DNA of 64,000 nt, from positions 252,630 to 316,629 of the forward strand of contig JAZKBR010000002.1 of the NCBI GenBank assembly GCA_040388535.1. The letters run 5' to 3'. This document shows, in pieces, positions 11,370 through 18,425 of the stretch. A program made the translations under genes and the position numbers. The notes under the pieces are model-generated. The model saw nothing but the letters and a program-made list of their open reading frames with translations. It was not told the DNA's origin and did not search any database. Numbering within the stretch: the stretch's first letter is position 1; each line of letters begins with the position of its first letter. The DNA is from Gemmatimonadota bacterium (GTDB lineage: Bacteria > Gemmatimonadota > Gemmatimonadetes > Gemmatimonadales > GWC2-71-9).

Positions 11370-11383
11370 CAGGGCTCCTGGGG

Positions 11384-11632
11384 TCAGCGGCCGGTGAGCC
11401 GGCGGAGGGCGGTGAGCTTCTCGAGGGCACTCTGCCCCGAGGTGGCCGGAGCCGCCGGTGAAACGGCAAAGAGGTCGCGAATATCGAGCAGGATCTCGAG
11501 CATCAACTGGTCACGCATGTAGGAATTGTCGAGGTCGGCCATCCGGACGCCGTTGTCGCCGAGCTTGGCGGCCTCATATGATTCCCGATAGATCTGCTCG
11601 AGGTTATTGAGAATTCGTTCTCTTGTGCGCAT
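11384..11632 (-). CDS. Small hypothetical protein, 82 aa
   Basis: I do not recognise this protein. It is predicted helical and charged in its first half (RTRERILNNLEQIYRESYEA), has no signal or membrane segment, and contains a MRDQLMLEILLDIRDLF stretch followed by an Ala/Pro/Ser linker. It starts with ATG and a weak GAGGCGAG site, is 14 bases upstream of the amidohydrolase gene, and is divergent from the first pseudopilin gene. Codon use matches its neighbours, which supports it as a real gene. Confidence 0.6.
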   Translation of the reverse strand: MRTRERILNNLEQIYRESYEAAKLGDNGVRMADLDNSYMRDQLMLEILLDIRDLFAVSPAAPATSGQSALEKLTALRRLTGR

Positions 11633-11695: not shown

Positions 11696-12181
11696 ATGAC
11701 CTTACAATCTGGTAGTGATTTCTCGCTCAGGCAGGGCCCCCGACGGCGACGGGGCTTCACCCTGATCGAGATGCTGCTGGTGATCGTGATGCTGGGATTG
11801 CTCTCGGCGATGCTGATGCCGCGGGTCTCCCGGATCACCACCCACGCCAAGCTCAACGAGGCCGCGACGATCATCGCCGGCGACATGGAACAGGCGGTGG
11901 GTTTGGCAGCTCGGCTCCGGAAGCCCGTTGTCATCAGCTATGTGTCGGGTGGAAAGTATACAGTGCGCGACCGGGCGACGTCGCCGAACGATACTCTGCG
12001 CCTGAGCCGGGACCTCGGATTCGGCCCCGATCAGGGGGTTGCGGTGGTGGCGTTTACACCGACATCCGTGATCGTCTATCCCAACGGACTGGTGGATGCT
12101 TCCCTGTTGGTGCGGGTCACGGGAGACAATTTTTCGCGGCACGTGACGGTTTCACCCGCGGGTCTGGTGAGGTTGCAGTGA
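11696..12181 (+). CDS. Pseudopilin, FimT/GspH type (cassette 1)
   Basis: A 161-aa type IV pilin-like protein. A basic leader RRRR precedes the prepilin-peptidase site GFTLIEMLLV, with Glu at +5 of the mature protein, followed by a hydrophobic helix. FimT/GspH-like minor pilins have a beta-rich globular head, and the remaining 120 residues fit that. It is first in a run of eight pilin-like genes and is divergent from the 82-aa gene, so a promoter should lie in 11633-11695. Minor pilins prime pilus or type II secretion pseudopilus assembly in the inner membrane and periplasm; which machine is used here cannot be told, since no secretin or ATPase gene is in view. Confidence 0.85.
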   Translation: MTLQSGSDFSLRQGPRRRRGFTLIEMLLVIVMLGLLSAMLMPRVSRITTHAKLNEAATIIAGDMEQAVGLAARLRKPVVISYVSGGKYTVRDRATSPNDTLRLSRDLGFGPDQGVAVVAFTPTSVIVYPNGLVDASLLVRVTGDNFSRHVTVSPAGLVRLQ

Positions 12182-12567
12182 TGCGGAAACGCAACGGTTT
12201 TACGCTGATTGAGGTGCTGATTGCCATCGTCATCCTGGGCGCGATGGCGGGTGGCCTCTCGGCGATGCTGCTGACCAGCGGCCGTCAGGCCCGCGATACC
12301 GGCAAGCTGGCCTACCGGGCGGCGGTGCTGAACGCCGAGGTTTCCCGGGTGACGGCAATCCCGGCAGGCGATATGACCGACGGCACGGTGACCAAGACCG
12401 TCACCTCTCTTCCGCTCGCCTACACCATGACCACGGTGGCAGCGACCTCCAGCGGGACCCAGACTGTGACCATTACCCTGACCCCAACGGGCACCCGGCC
12501 GATCGGGGCGCTCACCCGCGTCATCACCCGCAAGGGTGGTGTCTCCAACCCCTTCTACACGCCATGA
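12181..12567 (+). CDS. Pseudopilin, PilV/GspI type (cassette 1)
   Basis: A 128-aa minor pilin-like protein. The start is ATG at 12181, overlapping the previous stop by one base; an in-frame GTG at 12178 just before it is an alternative. RKRNGFTLIEVLIAIVIL carries the prepilin-peptidase site and Glu5. The short Thr-rich beta-like head fits PilV/GspI. It is the second gene of cassette 1 and the counterpart of the gene at 15189. Confidence 0.82.
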   Translation: MRKRNGFTLIEVLIAIVILGAMAGGLSAMLLTSGRQARDTGKLAYRAAVLNAEVSRVTAIPAGDMTDGTVTKTVTSLPLAYTMTTVAATSSGTQTVTITLTPTGTRPIGALTRVITRKGGVSNPFYTP

Positions 12568-13457
12568 TCCATTCGCGGCGTGGCGTGACGATCATTGAAC
12601 TGCTCATCGCGATGGTGATTGCTGCGATCCTTGGCGCAGCCACACTCTCGCTGATGATGAGCCAGAGCCGTTTCACCGAGCGCGCCGAAGGGCAGCGAGC
12701 CGGTCGACGCGTCGGTCGAAGCGCGATCAACGTGCTCAGCAACGACCTGCGAATGGTCGATCCCGACTGGGGCATCGAAGCCGCCAGCGCGAGCTCGATC
12801 ACGGTCAAGGTTCCGTATGCCCTGGGGGTGGTCTGCTCGGCCGCCTATGTCTCACCCAACACGACGCAGGTGATCGCCCTCCTCCCGGTGGACAGCGTTG
12901 TGCTGAACCTGGGCGGATATTCAGGGTACGCAACGCGAGGCAACACGGGCGTCTATACCGCAGTCGCCGGGGGAACGGTGACTGACAACGGCGCACTGAC
13001 CTCGACCTGCACTAGCGCGCCGGCGAACGTTTTTGCGATCGCGGCGCCGTCGAGTGCTCCGAACCAGAAAACCCGGCAGATCACCATTGTTGTCAACGCG
13101 GGGAGTGATGTGCGTGTGGCGGTCGGGACACCGGTGATGCTCTATCGGCGGACGAACTTCTACTTCGGCAACTCGAACCAGACCGGGCTCAGCGGACGGA
13201 CGGCACTCTGGCGGAATTACCTCGATGGCGGCGGCTCGGCCGTGGAACTTGCGGCGCCATTTGACGCCTCGGCGGCGTTTCGATTCTTCAATCAGGCCGC
13301 CACCGTCTCGCAGACGGCGGTGCCATCACCGCTGACCGACATCAAGGGATTCGAGCTCTTCCTGCCTGGCGAAAGCGATTTGACGGCGCGCAAGGCGAGC
13401 GGACCGGAACAAGCTGATGTGACCACCGCGATTTTTCTCGTGAACCGAGCATCCTGA
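12564..13457 (+). CDS. Pseudopilin, PilW/GspJ type (cassette 1)
   Basis: A 297-aa pilin-like protein with leader SRRGVTIIELLIAMVIAA, giving a G-V cleavage site with Glu at mature position 5, then a large beta-rich head. Size and order fit PilW/GspJ minor pilins. The ATG overlaps the previous stop (ATGA), indicating translational coupling. The head contains a pair of Cys residues (VVCSAAY, STCTSAP) that could form a disulfide. Its counterpart in cassette 2 is at 15566. Confidence 0.8.
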   Translation: MIHSRRGVTIIELLIAMVIAAILGAATLSLMMSQSRFTERAEGQRAGRRVGRSAINVLSNDLRMVDPDWGIEAASASSITVKVPYALGVVCSAAYVSPNTTQVIALLPVDSVVLNLGGYSGYATRGNTGVYTAVAGGTVTDNGALTSTCTSAPANVFAIAAPSSAPNQKTRQITIVVNAGSDVRVAVGTPVMLYRRTNFYFGNSNQTGLSGRTALWRNYLDGGGSAVELAAPFDASAAFRFFNQAATVSQTAVPSPLTDIKGFELFLPGESDLTARKASGPEQADVTTAIFLVNRAS

Positions 13458-14653
13458 TGAAAGCGCGCAAGAGTCGACTCACCGCCAATCGTCGCGGCGC
13501 GGCGTTGATGACCGTGATGCTGCTGGTGCTGCTGTTGCTGGTCGCGATTGTCGGCGCCTGGACCCGAACCACCACCGAGCGACGCACGGCGCTCGATGCG
13601 ACGGCCCAGGTCGACGCGTACACCATGGCGCAGAGCGGCATCGACAAGTACCTGGTGGCGAACCCCAGCCAACCGACCACGCTTCCCGATTCGGTGACGT
13701 ACAACGTCACCGGCGGCAAGGTGACGGTGACGTTGCGCTACTTCCGGCGTTCGCCGGTGACCCCAGTCGACACGATTCTGTTGATTACGTCGCGGGCCGA
13801 GGTCACCAACGACCGTTACAACGCCACGGCGCCACGGGCGACACGCACCGTGAGCCAATTCCTCCGCTTTGCCCCGGCCACGTTCGACGTCGACGCGGGA
13901 TTCTTCGCGCTCGCGGGGTTTGAGAAGAATGGCGCGTCGGGGACCGTCAGCGGCGTAGATCACTGCACCACAGCACCTGCTCCACTGGCAAGCATCCCCG
14001 GCCTGGGGGTGCCGTCGACCAGCGGCAGTCCCACCACCCCCGACCTGACCCAATCCGGGGGTTCGGGGTCAGGCTGGATGGATGGGAACCCGGATAATGC
14101 CCCAGTTATCCTCGGGACCCCAGGTCCCACGGGCACCGCCAAGGACAACCTCTCCTTCGACTGGTACGATCTCTCGCAGCGGACCAACATCACGCCGGAC
14201 TATTACAAGAGGACCGTCTCACCAACGGTCGGCTGGACGCCGAGTACTCCTCCCACCTCGTCGAACGCCAGGCTGTACTTCGTTCAGGGAGACGTCACCC
14301 TGAACGGAGGGGGCGATATGAACAATGGGTATGGCATTCTGATAGTGACTGGAAATTTGACACTGGGCGGAAGTTGGAGCTTTAACGGCATCGTAATGGT
14401 CGGTGGCAAGCTGACATCAAATGGTAACAATACCATCTACGGAGCCACTTATACCGGGCTAAACATCTCCGTTCCGGCCTATAATCCACCAAATGCTGCC
14501 AACCCCTCCTTCCCGATTCCGACTGCATCAGATCTAGGCAACGGCACCAAAACGTACCAGTACGACTCTTGCATGATCAAGAAAGCACTGTCCCAGTATG
14601 GGGACTGGGCTCGCCTCGGCAATGCGTGGACAGACAACTGGCCCTCGTACTGA
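13457..14653 (+). CDS. PilX-like pilus assembly protein (cassette 1)
   Basis: A 398-aa protein with NRRGAALMTVMLLVLLLLVA at the N-terminus, the pattern of PilX/GspK-like proteins lacking Glu5. The mature chain is Ser/Thr/Gly-rich. The C-terminal 120 residues contain repeated short beta strands (LYFVQGDVTLNGGG, GILIVTGNLTLGG, NGIVMVGGKL) and then CMIKKAL, ending in W-x-x-Y. The same C-terminal architecture occurs in the gene at 16459, so the two are paralogues. The stretch 14290-14560 is visibly richer in A/T than its surroundings. It starts one base inside the previous stop. Confidence 0.75.
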   Translation: MKARKSRLTANRRGAALMTVMLLVLLLLVAIVGAWTRTTTERRTALDATAQVDAYTMAQSGIDKYLVANPSQPTTLPDSVTYNVTGGKVTVTLRYFRRSPVTPVDTILLITSRAEVTNDRYNATAPRATRTVSQFLRFAPATFDVDAGFFALAGFEKNGASGTVSGVDHCTTAPAPLASIPGLGVPSTSGSPTTPDLTQSGGSGSGWMDGNPDNAPVILGTPGPTGTAKDNLSFDWYDLSQRTNITPDYYKRTVSPTVGWTPSTPPTSSNARLYFVQGDVTLNGGGDMNNGYGILIVTGNLTLGGSWSFNGIVMVGGKLTSNGNNTIYGATYTGLNISVPAYNPPNAANPSFPIPTASDLGNGTKTYQYDSCMIKKALSQYGDWARLGNAWTDNWPSY

Positions 14654-14736
14654 CCGGGAGCGGGACCATCAGGTAGCTTTTTTCGGGTTGAGGCGGCCAA
14701 GGCGGCCCCCCAACCCCTTGAGGCAGGAGGTTGCAG

Positions 14737-15192
14737 ATGGACCGCGTTACCAACCGTAGAGCCGGAACCCGTCGGGGATTCACCCTGATGGAGCTCCTGC
14801 TGGTTGTTGTCGTCATCGGTATTCTGCTGGCGATGACCGCCCCTTCCATCTCCGCGGCACTCGCCCGGCGCAATGTGCGCGGGGCCACCGCGGGATTCGA
14901 GTCGTTGTTCCGGCGAGCCCGGGCCACGGCGGTCGGATCGCGCCTCCCGGCCACGATAACCTTTGCCAGCGGCATCGCCTCGGTGAGCATCGTCCGGAAC
15001 GGCTCGAGCGTCACCATCGGGCAGAACCTCGACTTCCCCACCCAGTACGGCGTGAGCGTCAGCACGACCTCCGTCACCCTCCAGGTCGAACCGACCGGGC
15101 TGGTCCTGAGCGGGACCCCGTTTGTGGTGATCGCGACCAAGGGTGATGCGGCCGATACTGTCCGGGTGACGGGTTACGGGAGGGTCGAATGA
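14737..15192 (+). CDS. Pseudopilin, FimT/GspH type (cassette 2)
   Basis: A 151-aa pilin-like protein; ATG at 14737 follows AGGAGG with a 6-base spacer, which fixes the start. TRRGFTLMELLLVVVVIG is the processing site with Glu5. The head is beta-rich with a late VEPTGLVLSG motif comparable to the first FimT-like protein (VYPNGLVDAS). It opens the second cassette after an 83-base gap, the only sizeable gap in the pilin block. Confidence 0.85.
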   Translation: MDRVTNRRAGTRRGFTLMELLLVVVVIGILLAMTAPSISAALARRNVRGATAGFESLFRRARATAVGSRLPATITFASGIASVSIVRNGSSVTIGQNLDFPTQYGVSVSTTSVTLQVEPTGLVLSGTPFVVIATKGDAADTVRVTGYGRVE

Positions 15193-15572
15193 GTCTCAAG
15201 CCTCGCCGGGGTGGCTTCACCCTGGTGGAATTGCTGGTCGCCATCGTGATCCTCACGAGCGGCATTCTTGCCGTGGCCGGCGGCTCGATGATGACGACGC
15301 GCAATCTCCAGCGGAGCAAGGTCTCGACCCTCGCCTCCGGGCTGACGACCGCCAAGCTCGATGAGTTGCTGAGCTATGCCAATGCGACCTCGCCGGCATG
15401 CACGGCCGGGACGTTCGCCTCCTCGACGTCGGCACAGGTGAGCAACCGGATCTCGGTGACCTGGAATGTCCCGACGACGGGTGTACTCCGGACGGTGAAG
15501 GTCTTCGCGAGCTACAAGCTCTCCAGAGGTCAGACCAGGGTCGATACCCTCACGGGGCGGGTCGCGTGCTGA
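15189..15572 (+). CDS. Pseudopilin, PilV/GspI type (cassette 2)
   Basis: A 127-aa minor pilin-like protein with PRRGGFTLVELLVAIVIL at the processing site. It overlaps the preceding gene by four bases (ATGA). Two cysteines (SPACTAG and the terminal VAC) may pair. It corresponds in position and size to the gene at 12181. Confidence 0.83.
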   Translation: MSLKPRRGGFTLVELLVAIVILTSGILAVAGGSMMTTRNLQRSKVSTLASGLTTAKLDELLSYANATSPACTAGTFASSTSAQVSNRISVTWNVPTTGVLRTVKVFASYKLSRGQTRVDTLTGRVAC

Positions 15573-16462
15573 ATCGTCGCGGCATTACCCTCGTGGAACT
15601 GCTCATCAGCATGGTCGTGCTCGCGATCATCGGCGTGACCATTACCAAGGTGATGAGCGTGATGCTCAACACTTCCACCGCGCAGATCACCCTGGCCAAC
15701 TCGATGGGCGAAGCGCGCAACGGCACGCTTTCGCTCCCCCAGGAGCTGCGCGAGGTCGGCTACGACACCAACATCACCACGCTTTCGGCCGGGACCGACC
15801 TGATCGCGATCGCCGCCCACCGGATCTCGTTCAAGGCGATGCGCGGGATGGCCATTACCTGCGGCACGCCGACCTTGACCGAATTCAAGATCCGGAAGCC
15901 GGTCACCGGACAGCGGCTTCCGCGTCTGACGGACGAGTTCCTGCTCTTCGTCGAGAATGACCCGAACGCGGCCTTCGATGACCAGTGGTTCCCGATGCTG
16001 GTTACGGCCATCGACCCCAACAGCACCTGCGGCACCGACCCGGCGATGACCCTCACGCTCTCGGTCCCGCCAACCATCGATGGAACGACGGCGATGGCGA
16101 TCCCGCAGCTGCGCGTGGGTGGCCCAATTCGCTGGTATGAACGAGTGGAATACGGCCCGTTCGTCGATGGCACCTCGGGGCAGGCATTCATCGGGGTACG
16201 ATCGATTTCGCTGGGCGAGACCCAGATGAGTCCGGTGATCGGGCCCCTCCCCGACACGACTCATTTCAACCTGACGTATTACAACGCGGCCGGCACCGCG
16301 CTCAATCCGGCCGTCGCCAGTCCCCTGCTGGTGCGCTCGATCGGCGTCGCGATCACCACAATCACCGACCGTTCGAGCTCACTCGCGGGCACCACCAGCC
16401 GCGGCACGAACCAGTATCCGATGTACACCCGCGTCGCGCTTCGCAACGCACTCCGGCCGTGA
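15566..16462 (+). CDS. Pseudopilin, PilW/GspJ type (cassette 2)
   Basis: A 298-aa pilin-like protein. The chosen start is GTG at 15566, inside the last codons of the previous gene, giving VLNRRGITLVELLISMVV with a correct prepilin-peptidase site; longer readings only add out-of-frame sequence of that gene. The head has Cys residues (AITCGTP, NSTCGTD) and fits PilW. Third gene of cassette 2 and counterpart of 12564. Confidence 0.82.
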   Translation: MLNRRGITLVELLISMVVLAIIGVTITKVMSVMLNTSTAQITLANSMGEARNGTLSLPQELREVGYDTNITTLSAGTDLIAIAAHRISFKAMRGMAITCGTPTLTEFKIRKPVTGQRLPRLTDEFLLFVENDPNAAFDDQWFPMLVTAIDPNSTCGTDPAMTLTLSVPPTIDGTTAMAIPQLRVGGPIRWYERVEYGPFVDGTSGQAFIGVRSISLGETQMSPVIGPLPDTTHFNLTYYNAAGTALNPAVASPLLVRSIGVAITTITDRSSSLAGTTSRGTNQYPMYTRVALRNALRP

Positions 16463-17691
16463 CGGCGCGAGGAGATATGACACATTTGAACGGAATGTCG
16501 ACCCGGGCCGACCGGCGAGGCGTCACCCTGCTGCTTTCGCTCTACGCGCTGATCGTGCTTGGGGCGACGATCACCGCCGCCTTCATGGTGGTGCGCTTCG
16601 ACCGCTCGGCCTCTTCAAGCGCCACGGTGGCGGCCGATGCGCAGAACGCCGCCGAGGCGGGCCTTGCCGACGTTTACGCGACCTGGGACCCGACGGTGCA
16701 GGGCGCGCTGGCTGTCTGGACGCCAACCTCGCCGACGCTCTGGTCCGGGGGCACCCGGACGCTGCAGGCAAGCAAGCTCTACTACCTGCCCACGGTTAAG
16801 CGGATCAACACGCAACTCTTCATGGTTGAAGTTACCGGATGGCGCGGGACGAGCAGCAATCGGCTGGCCCAGCTCTCGCTGACCCAGTGGTTCCGCACCG
16901 TGAAGCCGACGATCGGCGTGAACGCCGCCGTCACCGTGAACGATCCGATCAAGTTCAACGGCAACGCTTTCGAGGTGAACGGCTTCAATTCACTGCCCCC
17001 CGAATGGGGCGCCGGTGAATGCGACGCACTCGACGCGGGGAACAGTGACGACGTCGTCGGCGTGCGCAGCGCCACCGGCACCGGCGTGAGCAACCAGGAC
17101 AACGACAACGTCTTCGGCTTTCCGGCGCGCGATGCCCCGAACGACCCGACCGTGACGTCGGCGACCTTCACCAACTTCGTCGACTACACCTTCACGACGC
17201 TGGGCTCCCAGCCCGGGGTGAAGATTCTGCCGAACACGACGCCGTACAACGGCGTCGGCCCGGTGCTCGATGCCGGTCTCGGGATTTGTGACCGCACGGT
17301 GCAGCTGAATTTCGGCGAACCGTGGCGGGCATCGGCGACCGTGCCGCAGTGCCAGGGGTATTTCCCGGTGGTCCACGGCACTGGTGCGCAGACCAAGTTC
17401 GCCGCCGGCAGCCGGGGCCAGGGAACGTTGCTCATCGACGGCGATCTCGAACTCGTCGGCGGCTTCGAATGGACCGGACTGATCATTGTCCGAAACCAGC
17501 TGAAGATTACCGGCAACGGGAACAAGATCTACGGGGCCATCCTGGCCGCCGGTGCCGACGTCGCCACGACGAACGGCTCAGTCGGCGGCAACGTGGACAT
17601 CCACTATTCGGCCTGCGCGATTACCAAGGCGGTCAACGGCGCATCGCTCGCGCGGCCGCTCACCCAGCACGGCTGGGCGCAGGCCTACTAG
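16459..17691 (+). CDS. PilX-like pilus assembly protein (cassette 2)
   Basis: A 410-aa protein with DRRGVTLLLSLYALIVLGA at the N-terminus. The GTG at 16459 overlaps the previous stop (GTGA); ATG codons at 16477 and 16495 are alternatives, both still upstream of the leader. The C-terminal region (LLIDGDLELVGG, GLIIVRNQLKITGNG, CAITKAV, ending GWAQAY) parallels the end of the 13457 gene. It closes the pilin block and is followed by a strong hairpin at 17719. The beta-repeat ending may be a surface-exposed adhesion or assembly domain; that is inference. Confidence 0.75.
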   Translation: MTARGDMTHLNGMSTRADRRGVTLLLSLYALIVLGATITAAFMVVRFDRSASSSATVAADAQNAAEAGLADVYATWDPTVQGALAVWTPTSPTLWSGGTRTLQASKLYYLPTVKRINTQLFMVEVTGWRGTSSNRLAQLSLTQWFRTVKPTIGVNAAVTVNDPIKFNGNAFEVNGFNSLPPEWGAGECDALDAGNSDDVVGVRSATGTGVSNQDNDNVFGFPARDAPNDPTVTSATFTNFVDYTFTTLGSQPGVKILPNTTPYNGVGPVLDAGLGICDRTVQLNFGEPWRASATVPQCQGYFPVVHGTGAQTKFAAGSRGQGTLLIDGDLELVGGFEWTGLIIVRNQLKITGNGNKIYGAILAAGADVATTNGSVGGNVDIHYSACAITKAVNGASLARPLTQHGWAQAY

Positions 17692-17781: not shown

Positions 17782-18288
17782 ATGCCCCGCCGTATTCTCT
17801 TCTTTGTCGCGCCGCTCTATGAGGACCTGGAGCTCTGGTATCCCAAGATCCGCCTCGAGGAGGAGGGATACGAGACGACTGTGGCTGGCATGGGCGAGCG
17901 AACCTACCAGGGGAAGCGCGGCTACCCGATCACCGCGGACACCTCGGTCGACAACATCCGCGCCGAAGAGTTCGATGCCCTGGTGATACCGGGCGGCTAC
18001 GCTCCCGACATCATGCGGCGAAGCGAACAATTGCTCACCATCACGCGGGCGATGCACGAGGCCGGCAAGCCGATCGCGTTCATCTGCCACGCCGGCTGGG
18101 TCCCGATCTCCGCCGGCATCGTCCGCGGTCGACGCGGCACGTCGGTTGGCGCCATCAAGGACGACCTGGTGAACGCCGGCATGCTCTGGGAAGACGCGCC
18201 GGTCGTGGTCGACGGCAACCTGATATCGTCGCGGACGCCGGCGGACCTCGTGCCGTTTACGAAGGCGATTATCGCGGCGTTGAAGTAG
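17782..18288 (+). CDS. DJ-1/PfpI family protein
   Basis: A 168-aa cytoplasmic protein of the class I glutamine-amidotransferase-like superfamily. ATG at 17782 gives MPRRILFFVAP directly at the first strand. The nucleophile elbow is FICHAGW (Cys in ICHAG), and YEDLELWYP supplies the expected early acidic residue. Family members act as protein/nucleotide deglycases, proteases or chaperones, and the exact role here is open. It stands alone between the pilin terminator and the repeat array that begins just after its stop. Confidence 0.88.
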   Translation: MPRRILFFVAPLYEDLELWYPKIRLEEEGYETTVAGMGERTYQGKRGYPITADTSVDNIRAEEFDALVIPGGYAPDIMRRSEQLLTITRAMHEAGKPIAFICHAGWVPISAGIVRGRRGTSVGAIKDDLVNAGMLWEDAPVVVDGNLISSRTPADLVPFTKAIIAALK

Positions 18289-18296
18289 AGACTAGC

Positions 18297-18331
18297 GAAG
18301 GGAGAAGGGAGAAGGGAGAAGGGAGAAGGGA
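18297..18331. repeat. Heptanucleotide array (GAAGGGA)5
   Basis: Five perfect 7-bp units begin nine bases after the DJ-1 gene stop. The linker before it contains AGAGACTAG, matching the unit used at 57631. No GGGCCGAC hairpin follows; instead a different inverted repeat lies at 18347-18395. Confidence 0.9.
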
Positions 18332-18346
18332 GAAGCAATTTGTCGC

Positions 18347-18395
18347 CCTGAGCGAAGCGAGGGGGTGGAGCTCAGGCTCCCTCGCTTCGCTCAGG
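18347..18395. repeat. REP-like inverted repeat
   Basis: Perfect 17-base arms CCTGAGCGAAGCGAGGG and CCCTCGCTTCGCTCAGG surround a 15-base centre that can itself fold (GGAGC/GCTCC). A single arm of nearly the same sequence recurs at 20045-20067, so this is a dispersed REP-type repeat. It abuts the first in-frame ATG of the next gene. Confidence 0.85.
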
Positions 18396-18425
18396 ATGAC
18401 ACTCACGATTCACCGGAACTCCTCT

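Follow-up and report, generated by a model that had tools for sequence, protein, structure and literature searches.

A 64,000-nucleotide stretch of a Gemmatimonadota genome, hereafter the window (contig C2, 252630-316629, of an assembly labelled G000 that comprises 3.7 Mb in 11 contigs and is 98% complete), raises the question of why one bacterium should keep two sets of minor-pilin genes side by side. At 11696-17691 of the window, all on the forward strand, eight intact open reading frames (orfs) for pilin-like proteins follow one another in the order H1 I1 J1 X1 H2 I2 J2 X2, that is, as two four-gene cassettes, here called class 1 and class 2. The explanation considered likely is that they are two ancient paralogous cassettes of one type IVa pilus, that class 2 was relocated or transferred to a position behind class 1, and that each would furnish its own tip complex. 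Minor-pilin cassettes are of an ordinary kind; the arrangement of these two and the ComZ-like build predicted for their fourth protein are unusual.

Composition and common descent of the two cassettes

An earlier note on this DNA had described two four-gene cassettes in the same order, with each gene coupled to the next and a sole gap at 14654-14736, and this description holds. Neighbouring cassette genes overlap by 1-7 nt, the 83-nt gap is the only one and marks the junction of class 1 and class 2, and the pairing of counterparts described below places the shared order beyond chance. Neither a terminator-like nor a promoter-like site was found in the gap, and the fold z of 14630-14745 is -1.12.

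Class 1 begins with H1 (11696-12181, 161 aa) in the FimT/FimU/GspH position, which matches the Pfam N_methyl model at 33.7 bits and the GspH model (PF12019) at 21.1 bits against a cut-off of 21; it continues with I1 (12178-12567, 129 aa, N_methyl 38.1 bits) in the PilV/GspI position, J1 (12564-13457, 297 aa, N_methyl 27.2 bits) in the PilW/GspJ position, and X1 (13457-14653, 398 aa), a putative tip pilin, in the PilX/GspK position. The corresponding genes of class 2 are H2 (14737-15192, 151 aa from an ATG start, with a TTG option at 14731; N_methyl 27.0 bits), I2 (15189-15572, 127 aa; N_methyl 31.7 bits, and type_IV_pilV 33.8 bits, below the cut-off of 52.2), J2 (15566-16462, 298 aa from a GTG start inside the end of I2; N_methyl 25.5 bits for the longer orf 15398-16462) and X2 (16459-17691, 410 aa). 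The names PilV/GspI and PilW/GspJ are based on position and on weak, mostly N-terminal matches below cut-off.

H, I and J of both cassettes have a prepilin signal with Glu5, and all six score above the N_methyl cut-off. X1 and X2 have no match to N_methyl; their helices start AALMT and VTLLL, without Glu5, and the PilX_N model gives 21.0 bits for X1 (cut-off 25.5) and no match for X2. Tip pseudopilins typically lack Glu5. The layout of type IVa minor pilins (FimU-PilV-PilW-PilX), four consecutive pilin-like genes in order of which the first three have Glu5 signals, is found here. The Verru_Chthon cassette is also a cassette of pilin-like genes; the models of its proteins C and D (NCBIfam TIGR02599, TIGR02596) match H1, H2, J1 and J2, all below cut-off and over about 50-95 N-terminal residues.

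The kinship of the two cassettes was examined by profile-profile comparison, with profiles built from homologues and the first ~32 mature residues removed. Counterparts still recognized each other beyond the helix (H1-H2, E 7e-9; J1-J2, 1e-12; X1-X2, 8e-35), the pairing of I1, which was with I2 only, being weak (E 5e-4, probability 33). Non-counterparts did not: the 12 cross-pairs gave E values of 0.08 or worse, and the 12 pairs within cassettes 0.03 or worse. Since homology after the helix is confined to counterparts, the descent of both blocks from one four-gene cassette is supported, with I the least certain member.

Age of the split and genomic settings of the two classes

In each of the trees built for X (82 rows), J (81 rows) and H (66 rows), a single branch separates class 1 from class 2, with Shimodaira-Hasegawa-like approximate likelihood ratio test (SH-aLRT) support of 100 for X, 99 for J and 100 for H, and with several families on each side. 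Class 1, in whose clade H1 and J1 fall (SH-aLRT 99 for J1), ranges over the family of the window, two more families of the order and one genome (G206) of another family in the class; class 2 ranges over three families of the order. Because each class is spread over several families, the split between them did not arise from a local tandem duplication. Trees in which the X1 and X2, or the J1 and J2, of this genome were forced to be sisters (37 rows each) were rejected by the approximately unbiased (AU) test, with p-AU of 0.019 for X and 1.6e-46 for J. Among J proteins, J2 of this genome and of its congener G004 group with the J proteins of two pilM loci of relatives, L234 and L240 (SH-aLRT 98). 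H2 is on the class 2 side of the H tree; a fork with support 81 has the H2 of these two genomes on its class 1 side, away from the remaining class 2 rows but outside the class 1 clade. Classes 1 and 2 appear from these trees to be ancient paralogues, with an origin far older than a local duplication would give.

A census of 61 genomes, many of them incomplete assemblies, in which X2 matches under ~61 bits and X1 matches under ~43 bits were left out, found class 1 in 32, class 2 in 35, both in 17 (G038 being counted as both, as locus L179 holds class 1) and neither in 11; class 1 occurs without class 2 in 15 and class 2 without class 1 in 18. Among the 17 genomes with both, the classes are adjacent in G000 and G004, the latter with the same tandem H1 I1 J1 X1 H2 I2 J2 X2, and 2.8 kb apart in G034; of the other 14, four (G025, G027, G029, G051) have them at least 0.2 Mb apart on the same contig, and ten have them on different contigs.

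Within the family, the class 1 site is recognizable by an amidohydrolase and/or PDH gene on one flank and MazG, RsgA and ProDH genes on the other. Both flanks are seen in G000, G004 and G007, the right flank in G018 (C67), where X1 is followed directly by MazG-RsgA-ProDH without class 2, and the left flank, amidohydrolase and PDH, in G134 (C66), where a further class 1 I gene starts behind X1 at the contig end and the other flank lies beyond it. The second slot at this site is occupied by class 2 in G000 and G004; in G007 (L053 5841-13049) two class 1 sets, the second with two X genes, stand in tandem between amidohydrolase and MazG. No widely order-shared neighbour of class 1 was present among the neighbour families listed, each found in at least four genomes and given with up to 26 places. 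These neighbourhoods suggest that class 1 is an old resident of the site.

The typical setting of class 2 in relatives is just before pilM. Named pilM loci were taken from the best 80 of 214 confirmed PilM matches (61-85% identity), 79 of them titled Gemmatimonadetes, Gemmatimonadota, Gemmatimonadales, Gemmatimonadaceae or Gemmatimonas, and 58 of the 80 had 2.9 kb or more of upstream sequence. In the 7.5 kb that precede pilM, a J protein (at least 45 bits) was found in 58/58, a class 2 X (cut-off 200 bits) in 35/58, H, J and X together in 25/58, and class 1 in 0/58; the class 1 set of G034 (L247) begins farther out and falls outside this range. PilM lies within 0.6 kb after cassettes in 20 genomes of the surveyed set, and several loci, such as L234, L238 and L240, have two sets in a row before pilM. 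Class 1 immediately precedes PilM in G206, and in G034 it lies 2.8 kb ahead of class 2, which ties it to the same machine. In G206 (L164 3347-8889), the class 1 set is itself preceded by a divergent cassette. The association of cassettes with pilMNOPQ is thus one seen in relatives; in the window, neither cassette is linked to pil genes.

The pil locus of this genome lies 870 kb from class 2, at C2:1137-1145 kb, and encodes PilA-like pilins (matches below cut-off), a reduced set of minor pilins, PilM (named by position and likeness), PilN and PilO. The reduced set, I' (93 aa), J' (235 aa) and X' (149 aa), stands before pilM at L048 7128-8550 (G000:C2:1139127-1140549), and J' groups with the J proteins of its genus (SH-aLRT 99). 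The same reduced set is found in the pil loci of eight congeners (G001, G003-G009), with X matches of at most 23 bits, and in five named loci of four congeners, genomes that partly overlap the eight. In L240 (probably G026), a reduced and a full set both still stand before pilM. The simplest history would start from a pil locus that had two sets; in the lineage of G000 and G004, the full set would then have moved 870 kb to lie next to class 1, with the reduced I-J-X set standing before pilM.

The earlier note had proposed a block duplication followed by divergence, and had named trees of each gene pair with relatives as the check. Common descent survives in the counterpart profiles, and the shared order and counterpart homology would suit a tandem duplication at this site, to which the two class 1 cassettes at the same site of G007 may be a related event; but the cassettes fall far apart in the X, J and H trees, the AU tests reject sister pairs for X and J, and class 2 is at home before pilM in relatives, so that local tandem duplication was rejected on trees and synteny and is given very little probability. 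A more serious contender, though still somewhat unlikely, is that class 2 did not move within the genome but was acquired by transfer, with another genome of the family as donor. The cassettes most closely related to it stand at the pilM loci of related genera (L234, L240; G026, G035), and class 2 X was not found in eight of the nine congeners searched (completeness 80-99%). Yet the pil loci of G026/L240 and L234 have both the full and the reduced set, a simple move would give the observed pattern, and the G+C content of class 2 is normal for the window. The favoured account, in which class 2 probably came from the main pil locus and joined class 1 by relocation or transfer, has points against it as well. 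A move within the genome and a transfer from a related genome leave the same pattern; a class 2 X of at least 200 bits is missing from 23 of the 58 pilM loci; the other class 2 H proteins do not group with the H2 of G000 and G004 in the H tree; and the trees were quick ones without bootstrap, with long rows included and rows collected with the profiles of the two classes, a sampling that may miss intermediates.

The pilus machine probably served by the cassettes

One secretin was found in the genome, just downstream of PilM-N-O (C2:1140-1145 kb), and the sole match to the GspL model lies inside PilM, below cut-off. As the genome yielded one secretin and no separate GspL, a single type IVa pilus is the most likely user of both cassettes. 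PilB (above cut-off), a second T2SSE-family ATPase in the PilT position and a PilC/GspF-family protein are encoded at C2:1075 kb. Three more strong T2SSE-family ATPases are encoded elsewhere (C8:69838, C4:217510, C7:261772) despite the one secretin. A third H-I-J-X set is present on contig C1 (L047 4399-8685; G000:C1:232398-236684), about 1.5 kb from an opposite-strand T2SSE-family ATPase gene; its X has 661 residues, of which N-terminal residues 5-75 match the class 2 profile (E 8.8e-7).

GspH-I-J-K of type II secretion are likewise four pilin classes in order, the last without Glu5, and GspG/H/I/J family names do appear among the weak matches. Nevertheless, the assignment of the eight proteins as pseudopilins of a type II secretion system was rejected, as neither a second secretin nor a separate GspL was found in this 98% complete genome; the single secretin stands beside the pil locus, the GspL model finds PilM only, and cassettes of both classes adjoin pil genes in relatives, which makes a secretion role scarcely credible. 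It is unlikely, if not to that degree, that all eight pilins assemble into a joint tip complex or work in sequence rather than as alternatives. With their short overlaps and a gap free of terminator-like sites, the genes perhaps make up one transcription unit, which would favour joint action; against it, each class occurs without the other in part of the census (15 and 18 of 61 genomes, many of them incomplete assemblies), and each cassette has a complete H-I-J-X. The functional reading that fits best is that of two alternative pilus-tip complexes, which the earlier note had raised as a possibility.

In Myxococcus xanthus, three minor-pilin/PilY1 clusters serve one type IVa machine, and cluster 1 or cluster 3 alone is enough for motility (PMC7541494). 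The resemblance lies in several FimU-PilV-PilW-PilX cassettes for a single type IVa machine; the difference is that each M. xanthus cluster has a PilY1, whereas the cassettes here have none and their X proteins have a predicted beta-solenoid. The PilY1 model PF05567 matched 0/61 genomes, but also 0/14 control genomes, and some Gemmatimonadota sequences are placed among PilY1 homologues in a published analysis (PMC13190605). On the M. xanthus model, each cassette would initiate pilus assembly and remain at the tip, X being the outermost protein: H, I and J would stack under X, and X, being without Glu5, would cap the filament. No account of such cassettes in Gemmatimonadota was found among the titles and abstract openings listed from the open-access literature.

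Predicted build of the fourth pilin and its possible ligands

A special C-terminal beta-region common to X1 and X2, also claimed in the earlier note, is borne out by profile alignment and by models. The X1 profile (37 rows) and the X2 profile (36 rows) align along nearly the full length of the proteins (hhalign probability 100, E 2.6e-41), and the class 2 alignment (36 sequences) has four invariant cysteines. In AlphaFold models built from these alignments, with a mean predicted local distance difference test score (pLDDT) of 84 for X1 and 87 for X2, a beta-solenoid is predicted at residues 130-360 of X1 (13877-14569, + strand) and 130-367 of X2 (16900-17613, + strand). When the models were searched with VIA-align, ice-binding proteins ranked at the top (Z 11.5-12.4 for X1, 13.5-15.2 for X2), followed for X1 by the Streptococcus sanguinis minor pilin 7o5y and then ComZ (6qvi), and for X2 by ComZ and then 7o5y. 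The S. sanguinis pilin aligns with residues 31-387 of X1 (Z 10.6) and 32-392 of X2 (Z 8.7), and ComZ aligns at Z 9.3 with each, with a root-mean-square deviation of 10.4 over 254 residues of X1 and 3.8 over 185 residues of X2. As the pilin alignment extends past the solenoid to the last residues, the solenoid appears to be inserted before the final strand; for both X1 and X2 the prediction is a pilin that bears an ice-binding-protein-like beta-solenoid in that position. The likeness to the ice-binding protein (DUF3494) fold pertains to the predicted fold of X only.

Three observations temper these comparisons. VIA-align Z scores below ~13 may reflect a mere common arrangement where repeats are concerned, which covers all the X1 matches and ComZ in both searches; Foldseek alone found no match to the X1 and X2 models at E <0.001; and the X1 and X2 profiles, compared with every PDB chain at an E limit of 10, did not retrieve ComZ. 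The likeness to ComZ is accordingly one of build on predicted models, not of proven kinship. A contig scan with X2 gave 43 stretches, none of which was confirmed.

In the Thermus thermophilus pilin ComZ, the solenoid is inserted between the penultimate and the last strand, and the authors of that work compare it with the ice-binding protein FfIBP (PMC6561018). ComZ and PilA1-4 resemble the present cassettes in combining a large pilin without the usual signature with small pilin genes alongside; the ComZ solenoid has ~380 residues against a predicted ~235 here, where the cassette gene order is H-I-J-X. The insertion before the last strand is matched here on predicted models, without a sequence match. 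GspK has a helical insert (PMC6561018) in contrast to the beta-solenoid predicted in X. The models suggest that a ComZ-like build may be the ordinary state of the fourth gene of minor-pilin cassettes in much of Gemmatimonadales. A fourth pilin free of the solenoid exists too: X' of the reduced set is, at 149 aa, too short for one.

Placed in the pilin head, the X solenoid would contact an outside ligand, which might be a surface, a polysaccharide or DNA. A ComEC-family gene is present in this genome, which is no more than permissive for a role in DNA binding and transformation. FimT uses a C-terminal GRxR motif for DNA (PMC8897410); this motif, sought as G[RK]x[RK] within the final 22 residues, occurs in 1/36 H1 and 1/26 H2 sequences. 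The X parts are mostly acidic, with median isoelectric points of 5.2 and 5.5 (range 4.1-9.7). Both features speak against DNA as the ligand, and a DNA receptor was not adopted as a firm function.

A broader reading, put forward tentatively and rated below the two-cassette account given at the outset, is that one machine has four or more minor-pilin sets that can replace one another (class 1, class 2, the C1 set and the reduced set), with solenoid-bearing sets gathered at a tip-exchange locus and their X solenoids suited to different ligands. The second slot of the proposed locus holds class 2 in two species and a second class 1 in another, and is empty in a third. If this reading is true, the sets with solenoids are no longer tied to the locus of the machine itself. 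Here the minor-pilin sets are sorted by nature into class 1 alone, class 2 alone, both classes apart, both side by side, and a solenoid-free set before pilM. One machine may be able to wear different tips, and the question of why bacteria keep several sets for a single pilus thereby becomes testable with defined cassettes.

Inside the X1 solenoid the G+C content reaches its minimum for the window, 0.497 in the 300 bases that start at 14301, against a window mean of 0.654. The dip at 14200-14600 is smaller or absent in the four congener X1 genes compared, and a local exchange of the receptor part is a possible cause. Upstream of the cassettes, between the amidohydrolase gene and H1, a minus-strand stretch at ~11382-11630 is conserved at the protein level in G004 and G007 (40-44% over 78-83 residues) and is probably a small unannotated gene. 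Downstream, between DJ-1/PfpI and MazG-like genes, a short tandem repeat of GAGAAGG and an adjoining 23-nt inverted repeat occupy 18288-18336 and 18341-18401.

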